A stretch of 64,000 bases of DNA from Corallococcus sp. NCRR (GTDB lineage: Bacteria; Myxococcota; Myxococcia; Myxococcales; Myxococcaceae): positions 2,666,001-2,730,000 of the forward strand of contig NZ_CP114039.1 of the NCBI RefSeq assembly GCF_026965535.1, written 5' to 3'. Below the pieces are notes generated by a model. That model made no database searches. It was not told the DNA's origin and saw only the letters and a program-made list of their open reading frames with translations. Each line of letters begins with the position of its first letter. The stretch's first letter is position 1. Positions 1 to 33,016 of this stretch are shown here, piece after piece. Position numbers and translations under genes: made by a program.

Positions 1-1
1 C

Positions 2-1408
2 GTGGGGTCCAAGAAGTTCACCGAGTCCGTCATCCTCGGGGAGATGGTGACGCAGGTGGCGAAGGACGCGGGCGCGCGGGCGTCGCACCGGCGCGAGCTG
101 GGCGGCACCACGGTGCTGTGGGAGGCGCTGCGCCGGGGCGAGCTGGATGTCTATCCCGAGTACACCGGCACGCTGCGCCAGGAGTTGCTCGTGGGCCGCG
201 CGCTGCCGGACGACGACGCGCTGAGGAAGGCGCTCGCGGACGAAGGCCTGCGGATGAGCGCGCCGCTGGGCTTCAACAACACCTACGCGCTGGGCATGAA
301 GGAAGCGGAGGCCCAGCGGCTGGGCATCCGCCGCATCTCCGACTTGAAGGCGCACCCGGAGCTGCGCGTGGGCTTCAGCAACGAGTTCATGCAGCGGGGC
401 GACGGCTGGCCCGCGCTGCGCGACGCGTACGGCCTGCCCCAGCGCGACGTGCGCGGCCTGGACCACGACCTGGCGTACCGGGGCATGGAGAGCGGGGCCA
501 TCCAGCTCACGGACCTGTACTCCACGGACGCGGAGATCGCCGCCTACGGCTTGCGCGTGCTGGAGGACGACCGGCACCACTTCCCCGCGTACGACGCCGT
601 GCTCCTCTACCGCGCGGACCTGGAGACCCGTGCGCCCCAAGTGGCCCAGGCGCTGCGCCGGCTGGAGGGCTCGCTGACGGAGGCGAAGATGGTCCAGCTC
701 AACGCCCGCGCGCGGCTGGAGCATGTGCCGGAGGCCCAGGTGGCGGCGGACTTCCTCCAGGCTTCATTCGGCCTGACGACGGAGGTGCGCACGGACGGGC
801 GGGGGGCACGCATCTGGCAGCGCACGCGCGAGCACCTGTTCCTCGTGGGGCTGTCGCTGATGGCGGCCATCGCGCTCGCCATCCCGCTGGGTGTGGTGGC
901 CGCTCGACGTCCGCGCCTGGGGCAGGGCGTGCTGGGCCTCTCCAGCGTCATCCAGACGGTGCCGTCGCTGGCGCTGCTGGTGTTCATGATTCCGCTGCTG
1001 GGTATCGGCTCGAAGCCGGCCATCGCGGCGCTGTTCCTCTACAGCCTGCTGCCCATCGTGCGGAACACGGCGGCGGGGCTCCAGGGCATCCCGTGGGAGG
1101 TGCGCGAGTCCGCGGAGGCGCTGGGCCTGCCGTCCGGCGCGAGGCTCTGGCGCATCGAGCTGCCCATGGCGGCGGCCTCCATCCTCGCGGGTATCCAGAC
1201 GGCGGCGGTCATCAACGTGGGCACCGCCACGCTGGGCGCGCTGGTGGGCGCGGGCGGCTACGGCCAGCCCATCCTCACCGGCATCCGCCTGGACGACGTG
1301 GGGCTCATCTTGGAAGGCGCGGTGCCCGCGGCGGTGCTCGCGCTCGCGGTCAGCGGCCTCTTCGAGGCGGTGGCGCGCGTGCTGGTGCCTCGCGGGCTGC
1401 GCGGCTGA
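2..1408 (+). CDS. Glycine betaine/osmoprotectant ABC transporter, substrate-binding and permease fusion (5' truncated)
   Basis: The product imports a quaternary-ammonium osmoprotectant (OpuC/ProX-type). The visible 468 residues hold a substrate-binding domain (about 1-260), with GSKKFTES near the first visible residue and an ELDVYPEYTGT segment typical of the family. A BPD_transp_1 permease domain follows (about 275-468) with several membrane helices and an EAA loop (EVRESAEALGLPSG). The GTG at base 2 is merely in frame. The true start and export signal probably lie before the window. A binding domain placed before the permease in one chain is a known but less common arrangement. No ATPase gene is seen downstream, because the next gene converges 3 bases away, so the ATPase should lie upstream. 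Confidence 0.88.
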   Translation: MGSKKFTESVILGEMVTQVAKDAGARASHRRELGGTTVLWEALRRGELDVYPEYTGTLRQELLVGRALPDDDALRKALADEGLRMSAPLGFNNTYALGMKEAEAQRLGIRRISDLKAHPELRVGFSNEFMQRGDGWPALRDAYGLPQRDVRGLDHDLAYRGMESGAIQLTDLYSTDAEIAAYGLRVLEDDRHHFPAYDAVLLYRADLETRAPQVAQALRRLEGSLTEAKMVQLNARARLEHVPEAQVAADFLQASFGLTTEVRTDGRGARIWQRTREHLFLVGLSLMAAIALAIPLGVVAARRPRLGQGVLGLSSVIQTVPSLALLVFMIPLLGIGSKPAIAALFLYSLLPIVRNTAAGLQGIPWEVRESAEALGLPSGARLWRIELPMAAASILAGIQTAAVINVGTATLGALVGAGGYGQPILTGIRLDDVGLILEGAVPAAVLALAVSGLFEAVARVLVPRGLRG

Positions 1409-28246: not shown

Positions 28247-30319
28247 GTGAGTGACGAGCGTCCGGACGCGCTGCTCAAGAGCGCACTCGAAAAGATCGTC
28301 TACTTCGAGGCCCGTGCGCAGCAGTTGCATGGCGAGCTGGCGTCCGCGCGCGACGAGCTTTCGCACCTGAAGGAGGACCTGGCGGCGGGGCACCAGCGTG
28401 AGCTGGACCTGCGCCGGGAGGTGGCGTCGCTGGAGGTGAAGAGCGCCCGCGCCCAGGCCGCGCACGAGGAGCTGTCGCGGCTCAATCAAGCGCTGCGGCT
28501 GGAGCGCGACCAGTTGATGGCGAAGCTGCTGGACGCGAGCCGGATCCACTCGTCCGGCCAGTCGCGCGCGATGGCGGAGGACGACGCCGACGAGCTGGGG
28601 TTCGACCTGGCGTCGTTCATCTCCCAGCTGCGCAGCGAGGTGATCCTCCGCGGGGATGTGCCGGCGGTGCGCGCGCCGTTCAACGGGCCCGCGGTGCCGC
28701 TGAAGGCCTCCGACCCGAGCGTGCCCTGGACGGAGCGTCCCTCGCCGGCCATTCCGCCCCGAGCCCCCGTGGCCGCGGTGGATTCGGGGCTGTCGCCGGT
28801 GGCGCGCGAGGCGCAGCGGCTGCAGAGCGAAGGCCGGCTGAGGGTGAGCCCGGAGCAGATGGCGGAGCTGTCCGGGCATTCGGGCAGTACCACGGACGAG
28901 ACGCTGTTCGGGTTCTCCGTGCGGGAGCTGTCAGCGGCGGACGCGGCGGCGCGGGTGCGGGCGGCGGAGCGGCTGAAGGCGCTGGCGCATCCGGCGGCGG
29001 CCCCCGCGCTGGCGGCGGCGCTGCACGCGGAGACGGACGCGACCGCGCAGGTGGCGCTGGTGCAGGCGTTCGCGGGGCTGTGCCGGGAGGAGGGCGCGTC
29101 GGTGGTGTCGCCGCTCCTGTCGTCGCCGGTGCCGGAGGTGCGCATCGCGGCGTTGAAGGCGCTGCTGGTGCTGGCGCCGAAGGACGCGGCGCCGCACCTG
29201 GCGCAGGCGATGAAGGACTCGGACCGGTCGGTGCGCCGGCGCGCGTCGCTGCTGGCCCTGGGGTTGGAGGGGGAGACGGCGCGGCGGCTGGGTGAGGACG
29301 CCATCCACGACACGGATCCGGAGGTCCGCGCGCTGGCGGCGCTGGCGCTGGGCGCGGGCCGGGGCGAGAACGCCCGGACGCTGCTGCTGGGCGCGCTGGA
29401 CGACGGCGAGGCGCGCGTGCGCAAGGCGGCGGCGCAGAGCCTGTCGCGCATCCTGGGCCACGACGTGTCCGCGGTGGTCGCGCTGGATGATGCGCACCGG
29501 CGCCGGGAGATCCGCCGGCTGGCGACGCTGCCCGTGAAGCCCGTGCGCGCGACGCTGGACGCGAAGCCCGTGTCCGTGTCCGTGGCCCCCGTGGTCGCGG
29601 AGGTGGCGCAGCCGGTGGCGGTGCAGGCCGCGCAGCCGGTGGCCGCGAATGTCGCGCCGCAGGTGAGCGCGCAGCCCCTGCCTTCGATTCCCGAGCACAC
29701 CGCCGTGCCGGTGTCGCTCGCTGACATCGCCGCGAACACCTCGCAGTGGACCGCCACGCCCGTGGCCGCCCCCGCGCTCGCGGTCGCCACCGTGGGCGCG
29801 GCCCGCTCCGCACCCGCCGTGATGCACGGTGCGGCTCCGGCTCCCGCGCGGGTCGCGAACGGCGGGCCCGTATCCTTCGCTTCGGGCCCTGCCGCGCCGC
29901 CCTCGCGCCCGGTGGCCTCCGTTCCCCCCGCGCCCGTGCCGCCGCATGCCGCGCCCGTGCCGCCGCATGCCGCGCCCGTGCCGCCGCATGCCGCGCCCGT
30001 GTCGCAGGCCGCGCCCGCGCAGCCCGCCGTGCGGCGGACGCCCGTGCAGGCCGCGCTGGTCGCCATGGGCGCGCCTCCTCCCGCCCGGGCTCCGGCGCCC
30101 TCCGCCCAGCCGCCGGTTCCTCCCAAGCGCGGGCCCTCTCCCGTGGAGGCGCTGTGTGGGGCGATGTTGCAGGAGGTGCGGGTCGCTGTCCGAGGACGCT
30201 CGCTCGCCGAGCTGACGTCCGGGCTGTCCGCTCCGGCGGAGCTCGCCCAGGAGGCTGTTGCCCTGCTGGTGGCCCGAGGGGCCATCGTGCGAAGGGGGCA
30301 CAAATACTTCGCCGCTTGA
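28247..30319 (+). CDS. pomY: PomY, HEAT-repeat cell-division site protein
   Basis: This 690-residue protein has the three-part PomY layout: an N-terminal coiled coil (about 1-110), a HEAT-repeat domain (about 225-410, helices such as EVRIALKALLVL in register) and a long Pro/Ala-rich disordered tail (about 430-620) ending in a folded Ala-rich segment. In M. xanthus PomY (about 680 residues) forms condensates on PomX clusters and promotes FtsZ ring formation at midcell. Identification rests on architecture plus the directly downstream pomZ and pomX. GTG 28247 is chosen because the 77 upstream codons are not coil-like. The tail contains perfect 21-base repeats. Confidence 0.85.
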   Translation: MSDERPDALLKSALEKIVYFEARAQQLHGELASARDELSHLKEDLAAGHQRELDLRREVASLEVKSARAQAAHEELSRLNQALRLERDQLMAKLLDASRIHSSGQSRAMAEDDADELGFDLASFISQLRSEVILRGDVPAVRAPFNGPAVPLKASDPSVPWTERPSPAIPPRAPVAAVDSGLSPVAREAQRLQSEGRLRVSPEQMAELSGHSGSTTDETLFGFSVRELSAADAAARVRAAERLKALAHPAAAPALAAALHAETDATAQVALVQAFAGLCREEGASVVSPLLSSPVPEVRIAALKALLVLAPKDAAPHLAQAMKDSDRSVRRRASLLALGLEGETARRLGEDAIHDTDPEVRALAALALGAGRGENARTLLLGALDDGEARVRKAAAQSLSRILGHDVSAVVALDDAHRRREIRRLATLPVKPVRATLDAKPVSVSVAPVVAEVAQPVAVQAAQPVAANVAPQVSAQPLPSIPEHTAVPVSLADIAANTSQWTATPVAAPALAVATVGAARSAPAVMHGAAPAPARVANGGPVSFASGPAAPPSRPVASVPPAPVPPHAAPVPPHAAPVPPHAAPVSQAAPAQPAVRRTPVQAALVAMGAPPPARAPAPSAQPPVPPKRGPSPVEALCGAMLQEVRVAVRGRSLAELTSGLSAPAELAQEAVALLVARGAIVRRGHKYFAA
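29930..30001 (+). repeat. Three perfect 21-base tandem repeats within pomY
   Basis: The unit begins GCGCCCGTGCCGCCGCATGC and is 21 bases long. It occurs three times without change plus a partial fourth copy, encoding APVPPHA repeats in frame. The repeats sit in the disordered tail, and copy number is likely to vary between strains. Confidence 0.9.
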
Positions 30320-30371
30320 GGCAAGGTGCTGCATCCCGCCCAGGCCTCACACGTCATCCGAAGGGTCGTTC

Positions 30372-31334
30372 ATGGAAGCGCCGACGTACAGCTCGAAGCA
30401 GGTAGCCGAGATGCTCGGCGTGACTGCGAAGTCCATCCCCACGGACCTGCGCAAGGACGCCTACGGCCCGGAAGACGTGTGGGAGCTGCGCACGACGCTC
30501 AACAAGTTCCCGCCCACCGCGGGCCTGCGCAAACAGCTCTTCCTCAACTTCAAGGGCGGCACCGGCAAGACGTCCCTGTCCACGTCCTACGCGTGGCGCC
30601 TGGCGGAGCTGGGCTACGCGGTCCTCCTCATCGACCTGGACAGCCAGGGCCACGCCACCAAGTGCCTGGGCTACGAGGGCGAGGACTTCGAGAAGACGCT
30701 CCTGGACGTGCTCGTCCGCAAGACGCCGCTCGCGCAGGTGGTGCAGAAGTCCACCCTGCCCAACCTGGACTTCATCCCGTCCAACCTGAGCATGTCCACG
30801 GTGGACCTGGCGCTGATGCCCATGGCCGGCCGTGAGTTCAAGCTGCGCAACGCGCTCAAGGACGTGGAGGCGCAGTACGACTTCATCGTCTTCGACGCGC
30901 CTCCGTCCTTCGGCCTGCTCAACCTCAACGCGCTGATGGCCGCGAACGACCTGTTCGTGCCGGTGCTCGCGGACTTCCTGTCCTTCCACGGCCTCAAGCT
31001 GCTGTTCGAAACGGTGCAGAGCCTGGAGGAGGACCTGAACCACGTGCTGGACCACGTGTTCATCGTGGTGAACTCCTTCAACGCCACCTTCAAGCTGGCG
31101 AAGGAGGCGCTGGAGGCGCTCCAGACGCACTACCCCGAGTACCTGCTGCCCACCATCATCCGGCAGTGCACCAAGTTCGCGCAGGCCTCCAGCGAGGGCC
31201 GCCCGGTGTTCGTGGCGGACCCCACGTCCAAGGGCGCCAACGACATCCAGGCCATGCTGGACAACGTGCTGCCGCGCCTGGTGGCCGCGCACGCCGCGGC
31301 GGTGAAGGCCGGCACCGCGACGAAAGCCGGCTGA
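30372..31334 (+). CDS. pomZ: PomZ, ParA/MinD-family ATPase positioning the division site
   Basis: This 320-residue ATPase uses the nucleoid as a track to bring the PomX/PomY cluster to midcell. The deviant Walker A motif is KGGTGKTS with Lys66, and the hydrolysis aspartate is Asp90 in LLIDLDSQGH. Both numbers equal those reported for M. xanthus PomZ. An unusual N-terminal 50 residues (SSKQVAEMLGVTAKSIPTDL) look like a MerR-type helix-turn-helix relic. FDAPPSFG is the switch II region. ATG 30372 is 52 bases after pomY, and pomX follows after 8 bases, so the three form one operon. Confidence 0.93.
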   Translation: MEAPTYSSKQVAEMLGVTAKSIPTDLRKDAYGPEDVWELRTTLNKFPPTAGLRKQLFLNFKGGTGKTSLSTSYAWRLAELGYAVLLIDLDSQGHATKCLGYEGEDFEKTLLDVLVRKTPLAQVVQKSTLPNLDFIPSNLSMSTVDLALMPMAGREFKLRNALKDVEAQYDFIVFDAPPSFGLLNLNALMAANDLFVPVLADFLSFHGLKLLFETVQSLEEDLNHVLDHVFIVVNSFNATFKLAKEALEALQTHYPEYLLPTIIRQCTKFAQASSEGRPVFVADPTSKGANDIQAMLDNVLPRLVAAHAAAVKAGTATKAG

Positions 31335-31342
31335 GAGTTCCC

Positions 31343-33016
31343 ATGAAGAAAGCCTTCGAACAGAACGTGTCCCGCGCGAAGCCGCGCCTCCGTCTGGGGG
31401 CGCTGACGGGTGCCCTCGACCCGGCCGACCCCACGGGGACCGCCGCCACGCCGGAGCCCACCGCTCCGGAAGCGCCCGCGCCCGTCGCCGAATCGCCGGA
31501 CCTGTCCTCCGAGGTGCGCTCGCGCATCGAGCGCCGCGCCGGCCCGCGCCCCACCGCCGCCGAGGCGATGGAGGCCGCGCTGAACGCCCCGCCCCGGCAC
31601 GCCGCGCCGCCCCCCGCCGCGCAGGGGCTGCCGGCGGTGACGGCGCCCTCGTTCTCGCCGGTGTCGCACGCGCTGTCCGCGCTGGTGTCCCCGGAGGCCG
31701 CCCGCGTGGAGGAGGAGGCTCCGCCCGAGCCGTGGATGGATGCGGACTCTCAGGCGACCGCGTCCGATTGGAACGTGGCGCAGGAGAGCGCGCCCGAGGA
31801 GTCCGTCTGGGACGCGGACGCCGTGCCGCCGGTGTCGCACCGCGAGGTGGCGGAGGCCGTCGCCGCGTCCGCGTGGAACGTGTCCGTCGCGCAGCAGCGC
31901 GAGTCCGTGGTCGAGGCCTTCGGCCGCGAGCCCCTGGGCGCCGAGCCGACCCCCACGCACGTGGAGCCGCCCCCGCCCGCCGCCGCGCACTGGGATGCGC
32001 TGACGGCGCGTCCGGCGGCCGCGACGCACGTGGACGCGATGCGCGTGGCGCCCCTGGCCCACTCCGCGACGCACGCGGAAGCCGCCGCGCCCGTCACGTT
32101 CGCGTCTCCGCCCCCGCCCCCGGCGATGGCGCAGGCGGAAGCCCCCCGGGGAATGCCGGCCACCTTCGCGGGCCCGCCTCCCGGAGTACAGTTCGATGGA
32201 CGGATGGGCGTTCAGGCCCTCCGCATGCCTTCCGAGGCCGAGCCCATGACGACGTACGCTGCCGTCCAGGCCTCCACCGTCACCACCACCGAGACGGTGG
32301 CCCGACAGGAAGCCGCGCCCGCCCCCGTCGAGGTGCAGACGCCCGCGCCTCCCCGCGAGGACGACTCCGAATCCCGCCGCGAGAAGCTCAAGGCCCGCCT
32401 CAAGGCCGTGCGCGAGAACCCGCGCCCGGAGCCGCTGCCCGCCACCGTCGCGGAAGCCGGCCAGCGCGCCGTGGAGCGCATCACCCACCTCCAGGCGGAG
32501 CTCACCAAGGTCAAGGCCGCCAACCTCACGCTCACCCAGGACCTGGAAGTGGCCCGCCGCCAGGCGGAGAAGGCCACCGAGGAGGCCCGCCTGCGCATGG
32601 ACGAGGCCCGCCGCCTGTCCGCGGAGATGGAAGGCCGCGTGAAGCTGCTGGCCGACCTGGAGCGCGAGCTGGCCTCCCTGGAAGGCGAGCGCGACGAAGC
32701 GCTCCTGTCCCTCCAGGAGTCCCGCCAGGCCCTCCAGGCCGCCGCGAAGGAGCACGAAGCGCTGGAGCAGGTCGTCACCAAGGGCAAGCTGGCCCTGGCC
32801 GACAGCCTGGCGGAAGAGGAGCGCCTCGCCGTGGAGCTGGAGGGCGCCAAGGACGAGTCCGCCTCCCTGCGCCGCGCCGTGGAGACGCTCCAGGGCGAGC
32901 GCGACGTGCTGGCCCAGCAGGTCGCGTCCCTCACCGCCGAGCGCGCCGAGCTGCTGGAGGCGCGCAAGGCCCTGGAGTCCGTGCACCGCGCCCTGAGTCA
33001 GGCCACGGTGCGCTGA
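31343..33016 (+). CDS. pomX: PomX, scaffold and PomZ ATPase-activating protein
   Basis: This 557-residue protein carries the signature N-terminal peptide MKKAFEQNVSRAKPRLRLG, whose Lys13 and Arg15 are the residues that stimulate PomZ in M. xanthus. An Ala/Pro-rich disordered region follows to about residue 335. The C-terminal 220 residues form a continuous coiled coil (for example KLKARLKAVRENPRPEP, then ITHLQAELTKVKAANLTLT) that builds the filamentous scaffold. The M. xanthus protein is, from memory, about 404 residues, so the disordered linker here is roughly 120 residues longer. It converges with the M48 protease gene, 3 bases apart. Confidence 0.9.
   Translation: MKKAFEQNVSRAKPRLRLGALTGALDPADPTGTAATPEPTAPEAPAPVAESPDLSSEVRSRIERRAGPRPTAAEAMEAALNAPPRHAAPPPAAQGLPAVTAPSFSPVSHALSALVSPEAARVEEEAPPEPWMDADSQATASDWNVAQESAPEESVWDADAVPPVSHREVAEAVAASAWNVSVAQQRESVVEAFGREPLGAEPTPTHVEPPPPAAAHWDALTARPAAATHVDAMRVAPLAHSATHAEAAAPVTFASPPPPPAMAQAEAPRGMPATFAGPPPGVQFDGRMGVQALRMPSEAEPMTTYAAVQASTVTTTETVARQEAAPAPVEVQTPAPPREDDSESRREKLKARLKAVRENPRPEPLPATVAEAGQRAVERITHLQAELTKVKAANLTLTQDLEVARRQAEKATEEARLRMDEARRLSAEMEGRVKLLADLERELASLEGERDEALLSLQESRQALQAAAKEHEALEQVVTKGKLALADSLAEEERLAVELEGAKDESASLRRAVETLQGERDVLAQQVASLTAERAELLEARKALESVHRALSQATVR

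Follow-up and report, generated by a model that had tools for sequence, protein, structure and literature searches.

The closest described relative of the locus analysed here is the Pom system of Myxococcus xanthus, in which division is positioned by PomX, PomY and PomZ (MXAN_0636, MXAN_0634 and MXAN_0635). PomX and PomY have been reported to occur with PomZ in Cystobacterineae (PMC7993993), and the parts consulted of a 2026 paper place the system in myxobacteria (PMC13170346). Gemmatimonadota genomes, according to the consulted text of a 2024 paper, 'seem not to encode' Min, MipZ, PomZ, MapZ or SsgAB, site selection in this phylum being open (PMC11271474).

Here we describe the pomY-pomZ-pomX operon found in a stretch of 64,000 nucleotides from Corallococcus sp. 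NCRR (contig NZ_CP114039.1, positions 2,666,001 to 2,730,000; hereafter the window), together with its relatives in other genomes. The window operon itself is ordinary, and what is new is the range and variability of the family. Judged from sequence comparison, the pom operon is not confined to myxobacteria: complete copies occur in metagenome-assembled genomes (MAGs) from Gemmatimonadota, from Fibrobacterota and from two further classes of Myxococcota, and the Pom family is wider and more variable than described in the literature consulted. Among open-licence PMC papers we found none pairing PomX with Gemmatimonadota or PomZ with Fibrobacter. Taken as a whole, it is very probable that a standard Corallococcus PomX/PomY/PomZ system belongs to an operon family reaching beyond the myxobacteria, some members of which lack the gD domain of PomY and may activate PomZ through PomX only.

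The pom operon of Corallococcus sp. NCRR

The genes of the window operon, with the PomZ and PomX features discussed below, are as follows.

28247..30319, + strand: pomY, GTG start, 690 amino acids; open reading frame (ORF) with a coiled-coil N-terminus, HEAT repeats, a disordered linker and a C-terminal gD domain (winged-helix)
30372..31334, + strand: pomZ, ATG start, 320 amino acids; ORF for a ParA/MinD-type P-loop ATPase
30552..30572, + strand: Walker A of PomZ, KGGTGKT (residues 61-67, with K66), from the sequence
30639..30641, + strand: D90 of PomZ, from the sequence; D90A is a hydrolysis mutant in PMC13170346
31343..33016, + strand: pomX, ATG start, 557 amino acids; ORF with an N-terminal activating peptide, a long Ala/Pro-rich linker and a C-terminal coiled coil
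31343..31408, + strand: N-terminal activating peptide of PomX (NPEP), residues 1-22, MKKAFEQNVSRAKPRLRLGALT, with K13 and R15, from the sequence
32423..33013, + strand: C-terminal coiled-coil region of PomX (residues 361-557)

The first-pass annotation of the window had reported a complete pomY-pomZ-pomX operon at 28247-33016, with genes in the order and of the sizes known from M. xanthus. The coordinates are exact and the order holds, i.e. the three + strand ORFs form a single run, with 52 bp between pomY and pomZ and 8 bp between pomZ and pomX. In global alignments with M. xanthus AM003 (record L093), PomZ is 89.3% identical over 319, PomX 77.2% over 399 aligned residues and PomY 67.7% over 677, all three proteins matching this strain over their full length and in the same order. 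The sizes agree with those in M. xanthus for PomY (690 versus 682 amino acids) and PomZ (320 versus 319 in AM003), but not for PomX (557 versus the published 404), which is about 150 residues longer in the window, the extra length lying before the coiled coil. Length variation in the N-terminal part of PomX has already been published (PMC7993993).

All residues to which the annotation had given functional numbers are present, namely K66 (in KGGTGKT) and D90 of PomZ, and K13 and R15 of PomX. PomZ, a ParA/MinD ATPase, further carries G62 and K268; the mutants D90A, G62V and K268E have been described, and binding to DNA depends on K268 in M. xanthus (PMC13170346). No mention of K66 was found in those portions of the PomX/PomZ literature that were searched for this residue. 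PomX combines a positively charged N-terminal peptide (K13, R15) with a C-terminal coiled coil, and PomY a coiled coil, HEAT repeats (Pfam HEAT_2, 1e-16 at 253-339; HEAT, 6e-15), a disordered linker with the alpha5 helix, and a C-terminal gD. The order and start codons of the genes, the numbering of the residues, the domains and the full-length M. xanthus match therefore concur in identifying a Pom system, which has the order, the full-length homology, the NPEP residues K13/R15, Walker A, D90, K268, alpha5 and gD in common with that of M. xanthus. As ParA family ATPases position many cargoes, and as the Pfam matches are limited to a generic ParA ATPase, HEAT repeats and weakly scoring coiled coils, one could suppose a merely Pom-like system for another cargo. 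With three full-length M. xanthus matches in the same order and the published functional residues examined all intact, this is extremely unlikely.

The annotation had also taken the operon to identify the organism group. The nearest PomZs in named records, among the best 80 of 155 relatives, do belong to Corallococcus (C. interemptor, C. exercitus and C. carmarthensis, 98%), but the operon alone is no longer sufficient for this purpose, since some MAGs from beyond the Myxococcota carry the entire operon too. As to a second, closer pom cluster, the existence of which the annotation had considered, no other pomZ or pomX was found: searches for paralogues of PomZ and PomX over the whole single-contig genome (9,787,125 bases) gave one match for PomX, and seven other PomZ-like places that are 24-34% identical, bar one 55-residue match at 44%. 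Over the core, the ParA-like proteins of its own genome are at most 34% identical to PomZ.

By homology to M. xanthus, we infer expression, localisation, ATPase activation and a division function for the window system. ATP-bound PomZ dimers would bind the nucleoid, while PomX polymers would form a scaffold on which PomY condenses and recruits FtsZ. ATP hydrolysis by PomZ would be stimulated both by the N-terminal peptide of PomX and by the alpha5/gD part of PomY, and this hydrolysis would move the cluster to mid-nucleoid, where the Z-ring would form.

Range within and beyond the Myxococcota

In a survey of 179 Myxococcota genomes, each at least 80% complete, PomZ orthologues had 58-100% identity with E 8e-92 or better, and other ParA-like proteins E 1e-49 or weaker. 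PomZ was found in every one of the nine sampled families (f1-f9) of the window's order, though not in each genome. The eleven genomes of this order that had no PomZ orthologue in the survey are G022, G033, G038, G043, G049, G072, G131, G135, G141, G146 and G147, through either incompleteness or real loss. Outside the window's class, PomZ was present in G005 (one of nine genomes of its class) and in G014 and G180 (two of four genomes of theirs), and reading of the neighbouring ORFs revealed a complete pomY-pomZ-pomX operon in all three. When PomX and PomY of the window served as queries in pairwise tblastn, there was no match in G005 and G014, although their operons are complete by ORF reading and profile comparison.

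A cross-phylum PomZ scan, with one genome per species and considering the best 80 of 155 relatives, extended the range further: orthologues were present in records titled Gemmatimonadetes (L082, L085, L112, L123 and L144), in Fibrobacter (L143) and in Chitinispirillaceae (L147; phylum Fibrobacterota), and the PomZ of a record titled Gammaproteobacteria (L133) is nearly that of L144. In the Gemmatimonadota and Fibrobacterota loci, PomZ is distinct from chromosomal ParA, pomX with an NPEP lies downstream, and a homologous pomY, with coiled coil and HEAT, lies upstream. The two Fibrobacterota operons are complete, with a PomX start of MRKAFDANVPKLKPRLRPAM; at the Gemmatimonadota loci pomX overlaps the end of pomZ by 4 bases, and PomX starts, for example, with MRNRFNDSVPARKPKTQIGRVL or MKGRFNDNVPSRKPRTRIGKVL.

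Phylum-wide PomZ surveys at E 1e-60 covered 167 Fibrobacterota genomes (the phylum of L143) and 395 evenly drawn Gemmatimonadota genomes (the phylum of L112). PomZ was found in two of the former, i.e. the two already known, and in eight of the latter, seven of them being others than the query and 65-70% identical to it. Wherever a Gemmatimonadota contig reaches far enough, pomX and pomY adjoin pomZ: both stand beside it in G183, G185, G186, G366 and G412, while in G188 the contig end cuts pomY, and in G382 and G721 the cut lies within pomZ.

Homology of the partner proteins is supported by profile comparisons, in which five Gemmatimonadota-clade PomXs matched seven others, i.e. myxobacterial PomXs and one from Fibrobacterota, with 98.2% probability and E 5e-14, and four Gemmatimonadota PomYs matched five myxobacterial ones with 98.4% and E 1e-14 over 85 columns, all in the HEAT part. 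Coiled-coil or Ala-rich composition does not explain these matches, because the crossed PomX-PomY controls reached only 2.0% and 1.0%. Pfam HEAT had no match in the Gemmatimonadota PomY tested (L112).

The activating peptide of PomX is present at 81 of 83 loci, five of which were recognised by reading the ORFs, since the automatic pattern required K/R at position 2 and F at position 5 and these five NPEPs fell outside it. Among 54 unique NPEPs, F5 and P14 are invariant (54/54 each), and K/R13 and K/R15 each occur in 53/54, the exceptions being M13 in L159 and L15 in L120; a 55th unique NPEP (L126), shifted by one residue, was excluded from these counts. At two loci no NPEP was found, namely L132, which ends at a contig edge, and L111, whose pomX starts without it. 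The pomX frame of L111, from 4892, possibly reflects an assembly frameshift.

The distant operons might in principle be myxobacterial contigs misbinned into MAGs of other phyla. All sequences from outside the Myxococcota do come from MAGs, and the scan contains odd record titles (one 'Gammaproteobacteria', two 'Proteobacteria', and one 'Comamonas sp.' with a myxobacterial PomZ). Nevertheless, we regard misbinning as very unlikely. The Fibrobacterota loci have a GC content of 43 and 45%, against 69-75% in the Anaeromyxobacter group, and the GC content at third codon positions of their pom genes is host-like, i.e. 0.37-0.39 in the three pom genes of L143 (flanks 0.35-0.42) and 0.38-0.46 in those of L147 (flanks 0.38-0.52). 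As to Gemmatimonadota, the finding of PomZ in several genomes at 65-70% identity speaks against a stray contig, and so does the one flanking gene compared, near the L112 operon, which matches 148 of 150 genomes of its own phylum (self included; best other identity 63%) and 136 of 146 Myxococcota genomes (best identity 53%), a comparison of one gene at one locus. We take this gene to be pseudouridine-synthase-like.

Of the oddly titled records, L076 is 'Proteobacteria' SZUA-336. The title of L096 (Comamonas sp. KCTC 72670) looks wrong, as the pom operon in this record is myxobacterial and its PomZ shares 90% identity with that of the window.

The phylogenetic relationship of 55 PomZs was estimated by maximum likelihood, without outgroup, as an unrooted tree. 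Rooting with ParA was dropped, as the outgroup branches measured up to 10 changes and the row for L003, picked by motif, came from an ORF next to the ParA that had been matched; the groups are the same when ParA rows are included. In the unrooted tree, the Fibrobacterota PomZs join the Anaeromyxobacter group (support 100/99) and are nested inside it (99/96). The Gemmatimonadota rows, including L133, form one clade (100/99), which groups (100/98) with L120, with L074, L075 and L076, and with family f9 of the window's order. Forcing the Myxococcaceae, Delta, Anaeromyxobacter and f9 rows into one clade gave a tree that was rejected (p 1.7e-5). In line with the PomZ tree, the Fibrobacterota PomX and PomY are closest, among 11 sequences compared, to the five from the Anaeromyxobacter group (39-48% versus at most 35%).

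Three points weigh against residence and transfer as the explanation. Besides the MAG origin of every sequence, no flanks common to the Gemmatimonadota operon loci compared were found beyond the operon at E 1e-12 in 7-20 kb per locus, and the approximately unbiased test did not reject a placement in which the Fibrobacterota rows branch outside the Anaeromyxobacter rows instead of among them (p 0.193). Either way, the Fibrobacterota PomZs lie among myxobacterial PomZs, and their presence in only two of 167 genomes therefore points to horizontal transfer. Most likely, the Fibrobacterota operon was acquired from an Anaeromyxobacter-like donor. If this holds true, transfer of the whole operon would mean that distantly related hosts can exchange a positioning system.

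PomY variants and the activation of PomZ

Four segments of the window PomY were followed through its relatives.

28295..28327, + strand: N-terminal motif IVYFEARAQQL (residues 17-27), which can be traced out to Gemmatimonadota (L112 has ILLLECRLEHL)
28604..28633, + strand: motif DLASFISQLR (residues 120-129), C-terminal to the coiled coil, from sequence comparison
30044..30070, + strand: alpha5 helix VQAALVAMG (residues 600-608), fitting the alpha5 residues named in PMC13170346
30128..30316, + strand: gD domain (residues 628-690), hidden Markov model E 2.5e-30, the window sequence being among the 43 seed rows

The PomY set comprised 74 rows, near-copies within genera included, of which 71 have the N-terminal motif by which most of them were picked. 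The gD domain, described in PMC13170346, was searched for with a model built from 43 of these PomYs, which thus match by construction; at E 3e-11 or better it was found in 59 of the 74 rows, i.e. the 43 seeds and 16 beyond the seed. It is missing in all seven PomYs of the Gemmatimonadota clade (L082, L085, L112, L123, L133, L158 and L159), as well as in L074, L075 and L076, and in L079, L089, L090 and L091. At all of these 14 loci, the end of pomY and the start of pomZ overlap or are no more than 51 bp apart, and a gD hidden between the two genes is thereby excluded. L073 was not counted, since its pomY, likewise without gD, is separated from pomZ by 152 bp and looks like a reading-frame break.

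The alpha5 helix, proposed to bind the PomZ dimer (PMC13170346), is more restricted. Its exact motif occurs in 17 of the 74 PomYs, namely that of the window, those of 15 Myxococcus, Corallococcus, Pyxidicoccus and Citreicoccus records, and that of L096, with weaker matches in Hyalangium (L097) and a Myxococcaceae MAG (L087). The two Fibrobacterota PomYs have a gD (E 2-3e-11) and no recognised alpha5, and the Gemmatimonadota PomYs have no gD (0/7) and no recognised alpha5. A pattern of the DLAxFIAELR type is present in 53 of the 74 PomYs, with looser forms visible by eye elsewhere, e.g. in L123, L133, L143 and L158. This motif is not an obvious substitute for alpha5 or gD, because the coiled coil-HEAT (CC-HEAT) part of the M. 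xanthus PomY does not bind PomZ (PMC13170346).

According to the discussion of that paper, neither the alpha5 part nor gD alone is enough for PomY to activate PomZ in M. xanthus (PMC13170346). By this published map the gD-less PomYs should not activate PomZ, while the PomX peptide is kept, and we therefore propose that in the gD-less lineages, i.e. Gemmatimonadota and some Myxococcota, PomX would be the only PomZ activator. With such natural PomYs, devoid of gD and alpha5, the 2026 model of PomZ activation by PomY via that region can be cleanly tested. Some relatives of the three-gene set lack a part regarded as necessary in the model species M. xanthus.

Several features of PomZ weigh against the proposal that PomX acts alone. 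Taking the contact residues from the published model (PMC13170346), those for alpha5 are 0.88 identical to M. xanthus in the gD-less groups (six Gemmatimonadota-clade rows, three of the L074 type and one other), where the other columns reach 0.62, 0.62 and 0.73, respectively. The NPEP-contact residues are at 0.73, 0.67 and 0.85 in the same three groups (Fibrobacterota, 0.54; Anaeromyxobacter group, 0.60). Position 268 (M. xanthus numbering) is Q in four of the six Gemmatimonadota-clade PomZs, two of them near-copies. An expected decay of the alpha5-binding residues where alpha5 is missing was thus refuted. A cleft conserved without alpha5 may have another ligand or role, or may bind another segment. 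Other residues seen at position 268 are T, in L075, and R, in three further rows from Myxococcota.

It is quite possible, though we lean away from it, that the gD-less systems keep two activators, with another, unrecognised segment of PomY binding the conserved PomZ cleft. The conservation just described would fit, and a helix of nine residues can diverge past the motif test used here; yet such a segment would have to work where the alpha5 part or gD alone is insufficient in M. xanthus, and the close or overlapping ends of pomY and pomZ at 14/14 loci leave no room for a hidden gD.

It is also conceivable that the distant operons, although derived from Pom, position a cargo other than FtsZ, such as chromosomes or another large complex. 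Several lineages have a PomY without gD and alpha5, four of the six Gemmatimonadota-clade PomZs have not retained K268, and the part of PomY that acts on FtsZ is still open in the printed text consulted. We consider this unlikely, as the distant PomYs retain the coiled coil and part of the HEAT region, and as a CC-HEAT variant mostly colocalises with constrictions in M. xanthus, according to the same text.

Returning to the proposal of PomX as sole activator, it is tempting to speculate that Pom is a transferable division-positioning cassette, which moved whole into Chitinispirillaceae, is present in a minority of Gemmatimonadota, and is driven by PomX in its gD-less forms, the two-activator arrangement being an elaboration and not the core; we see this combined reading as nearly balanced between acceptance and doubt. 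If true, Pom would not be a myxobacterial speciality, and would be present in a phylum reported to be without known division-site selectors. The two-activator arrangement of M. xanthus would be an elaboration rather than the core mechanism because the gD-less forms would run on PomX alone. The occurrence of PomZ in eight of 395 Gemmatimonadota genomes makes the question of division-site selection testable for a small part of that phylum.

The PomZ N-terminus, linkers and neighbouring genes

One further domain concerns the part of PomZ that precedes the ATPase core.

30372..30521, + strand: PomZ N-terminal domain (residues 1-50), from structural superposition, with block means of the predicted local distance difference test (pLDDT) of 87-94

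In an AlphaFold2 model of the window PomZ (42 sequences), the mean pLDDT is 86.6, and the first five ten-residue blocks score 87-94. The whole protein superposes on Vibrio cholerae ParA2 (7npd; Z 30.5, root-mean-square deviation 2.5, 304 aligned, model 1..316) and on plasmid partition protein A (3ez2; Z 28.1, deviation 2.9, 303 aligned, model 1..309). It shares its ATPase core with Helicobacter pylori Soj (6iub; Z 32.4, deviation 1.7, 249 aligned), in which case the alignment begins only at PomZ residue 50. The model thus suggests that residues 1-50 form a winged-helix-like domain of the kind found in larger partition ParAs, which we assume to be those called type Ia. PomZ differs from 7npd and 3ez2 by an identity of only 16-18%, a shorter N-terminal part and the lack of an adjoining ParB gene; unlike the larger ParA partition systems with their ParB partner, its operon partners are PomY and PomX.

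A MerR-type N-terminus, considered on the basis of Pfam, was not retained, the matches being weak: among six N-termini, MerR_1 reached E 0.0019 in G005 and 0.12 in the window, with none in the other four. We consider the structural alignment to be the stronger evidence. The 2026 paper gives H. pylori ParA as the closest structure to PomZ, and its consulted text has no mention of 'PomZ N-terminal' or 'N-terminal extension' (PMC13170346).

In the window pomY, a tandem repeat with a 21-bp unit, present about four times (29928-30017), encodes PVPPHAA repeats in the disordered linker. In G014 (L040, 9816-12323; same contig as L074), PomX has 835 amino acids and a linker containing consecutive QQQLLE repeats, at a locus of 51% GC. 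The genes adjoining this pomX are presumably of the squalene/hopanoid type.

Upstream of pomY or pomZ in the window, no inverted repeats resembling an operator palindrome were found; a promoter scan of the operon gave none, and a terminator scan gave one - strand terminator-like site, no more than expected by chance. In G149 (L046, 3183-4918), an AAA_15 ATPase gene and a DUF3226 gene lie between pomZ and pomX as a defence-like pair inside the operon; the DUF3226 gene had no PADLOC match, and the best PADLOC models for the ATPase were PDC-M38A (1.6e-54) and AbiLi (6e-54). The genes flanking the window operon, both on the - strand, encode an M48 peptidase and a protein resembling nitronate monooxygenase.

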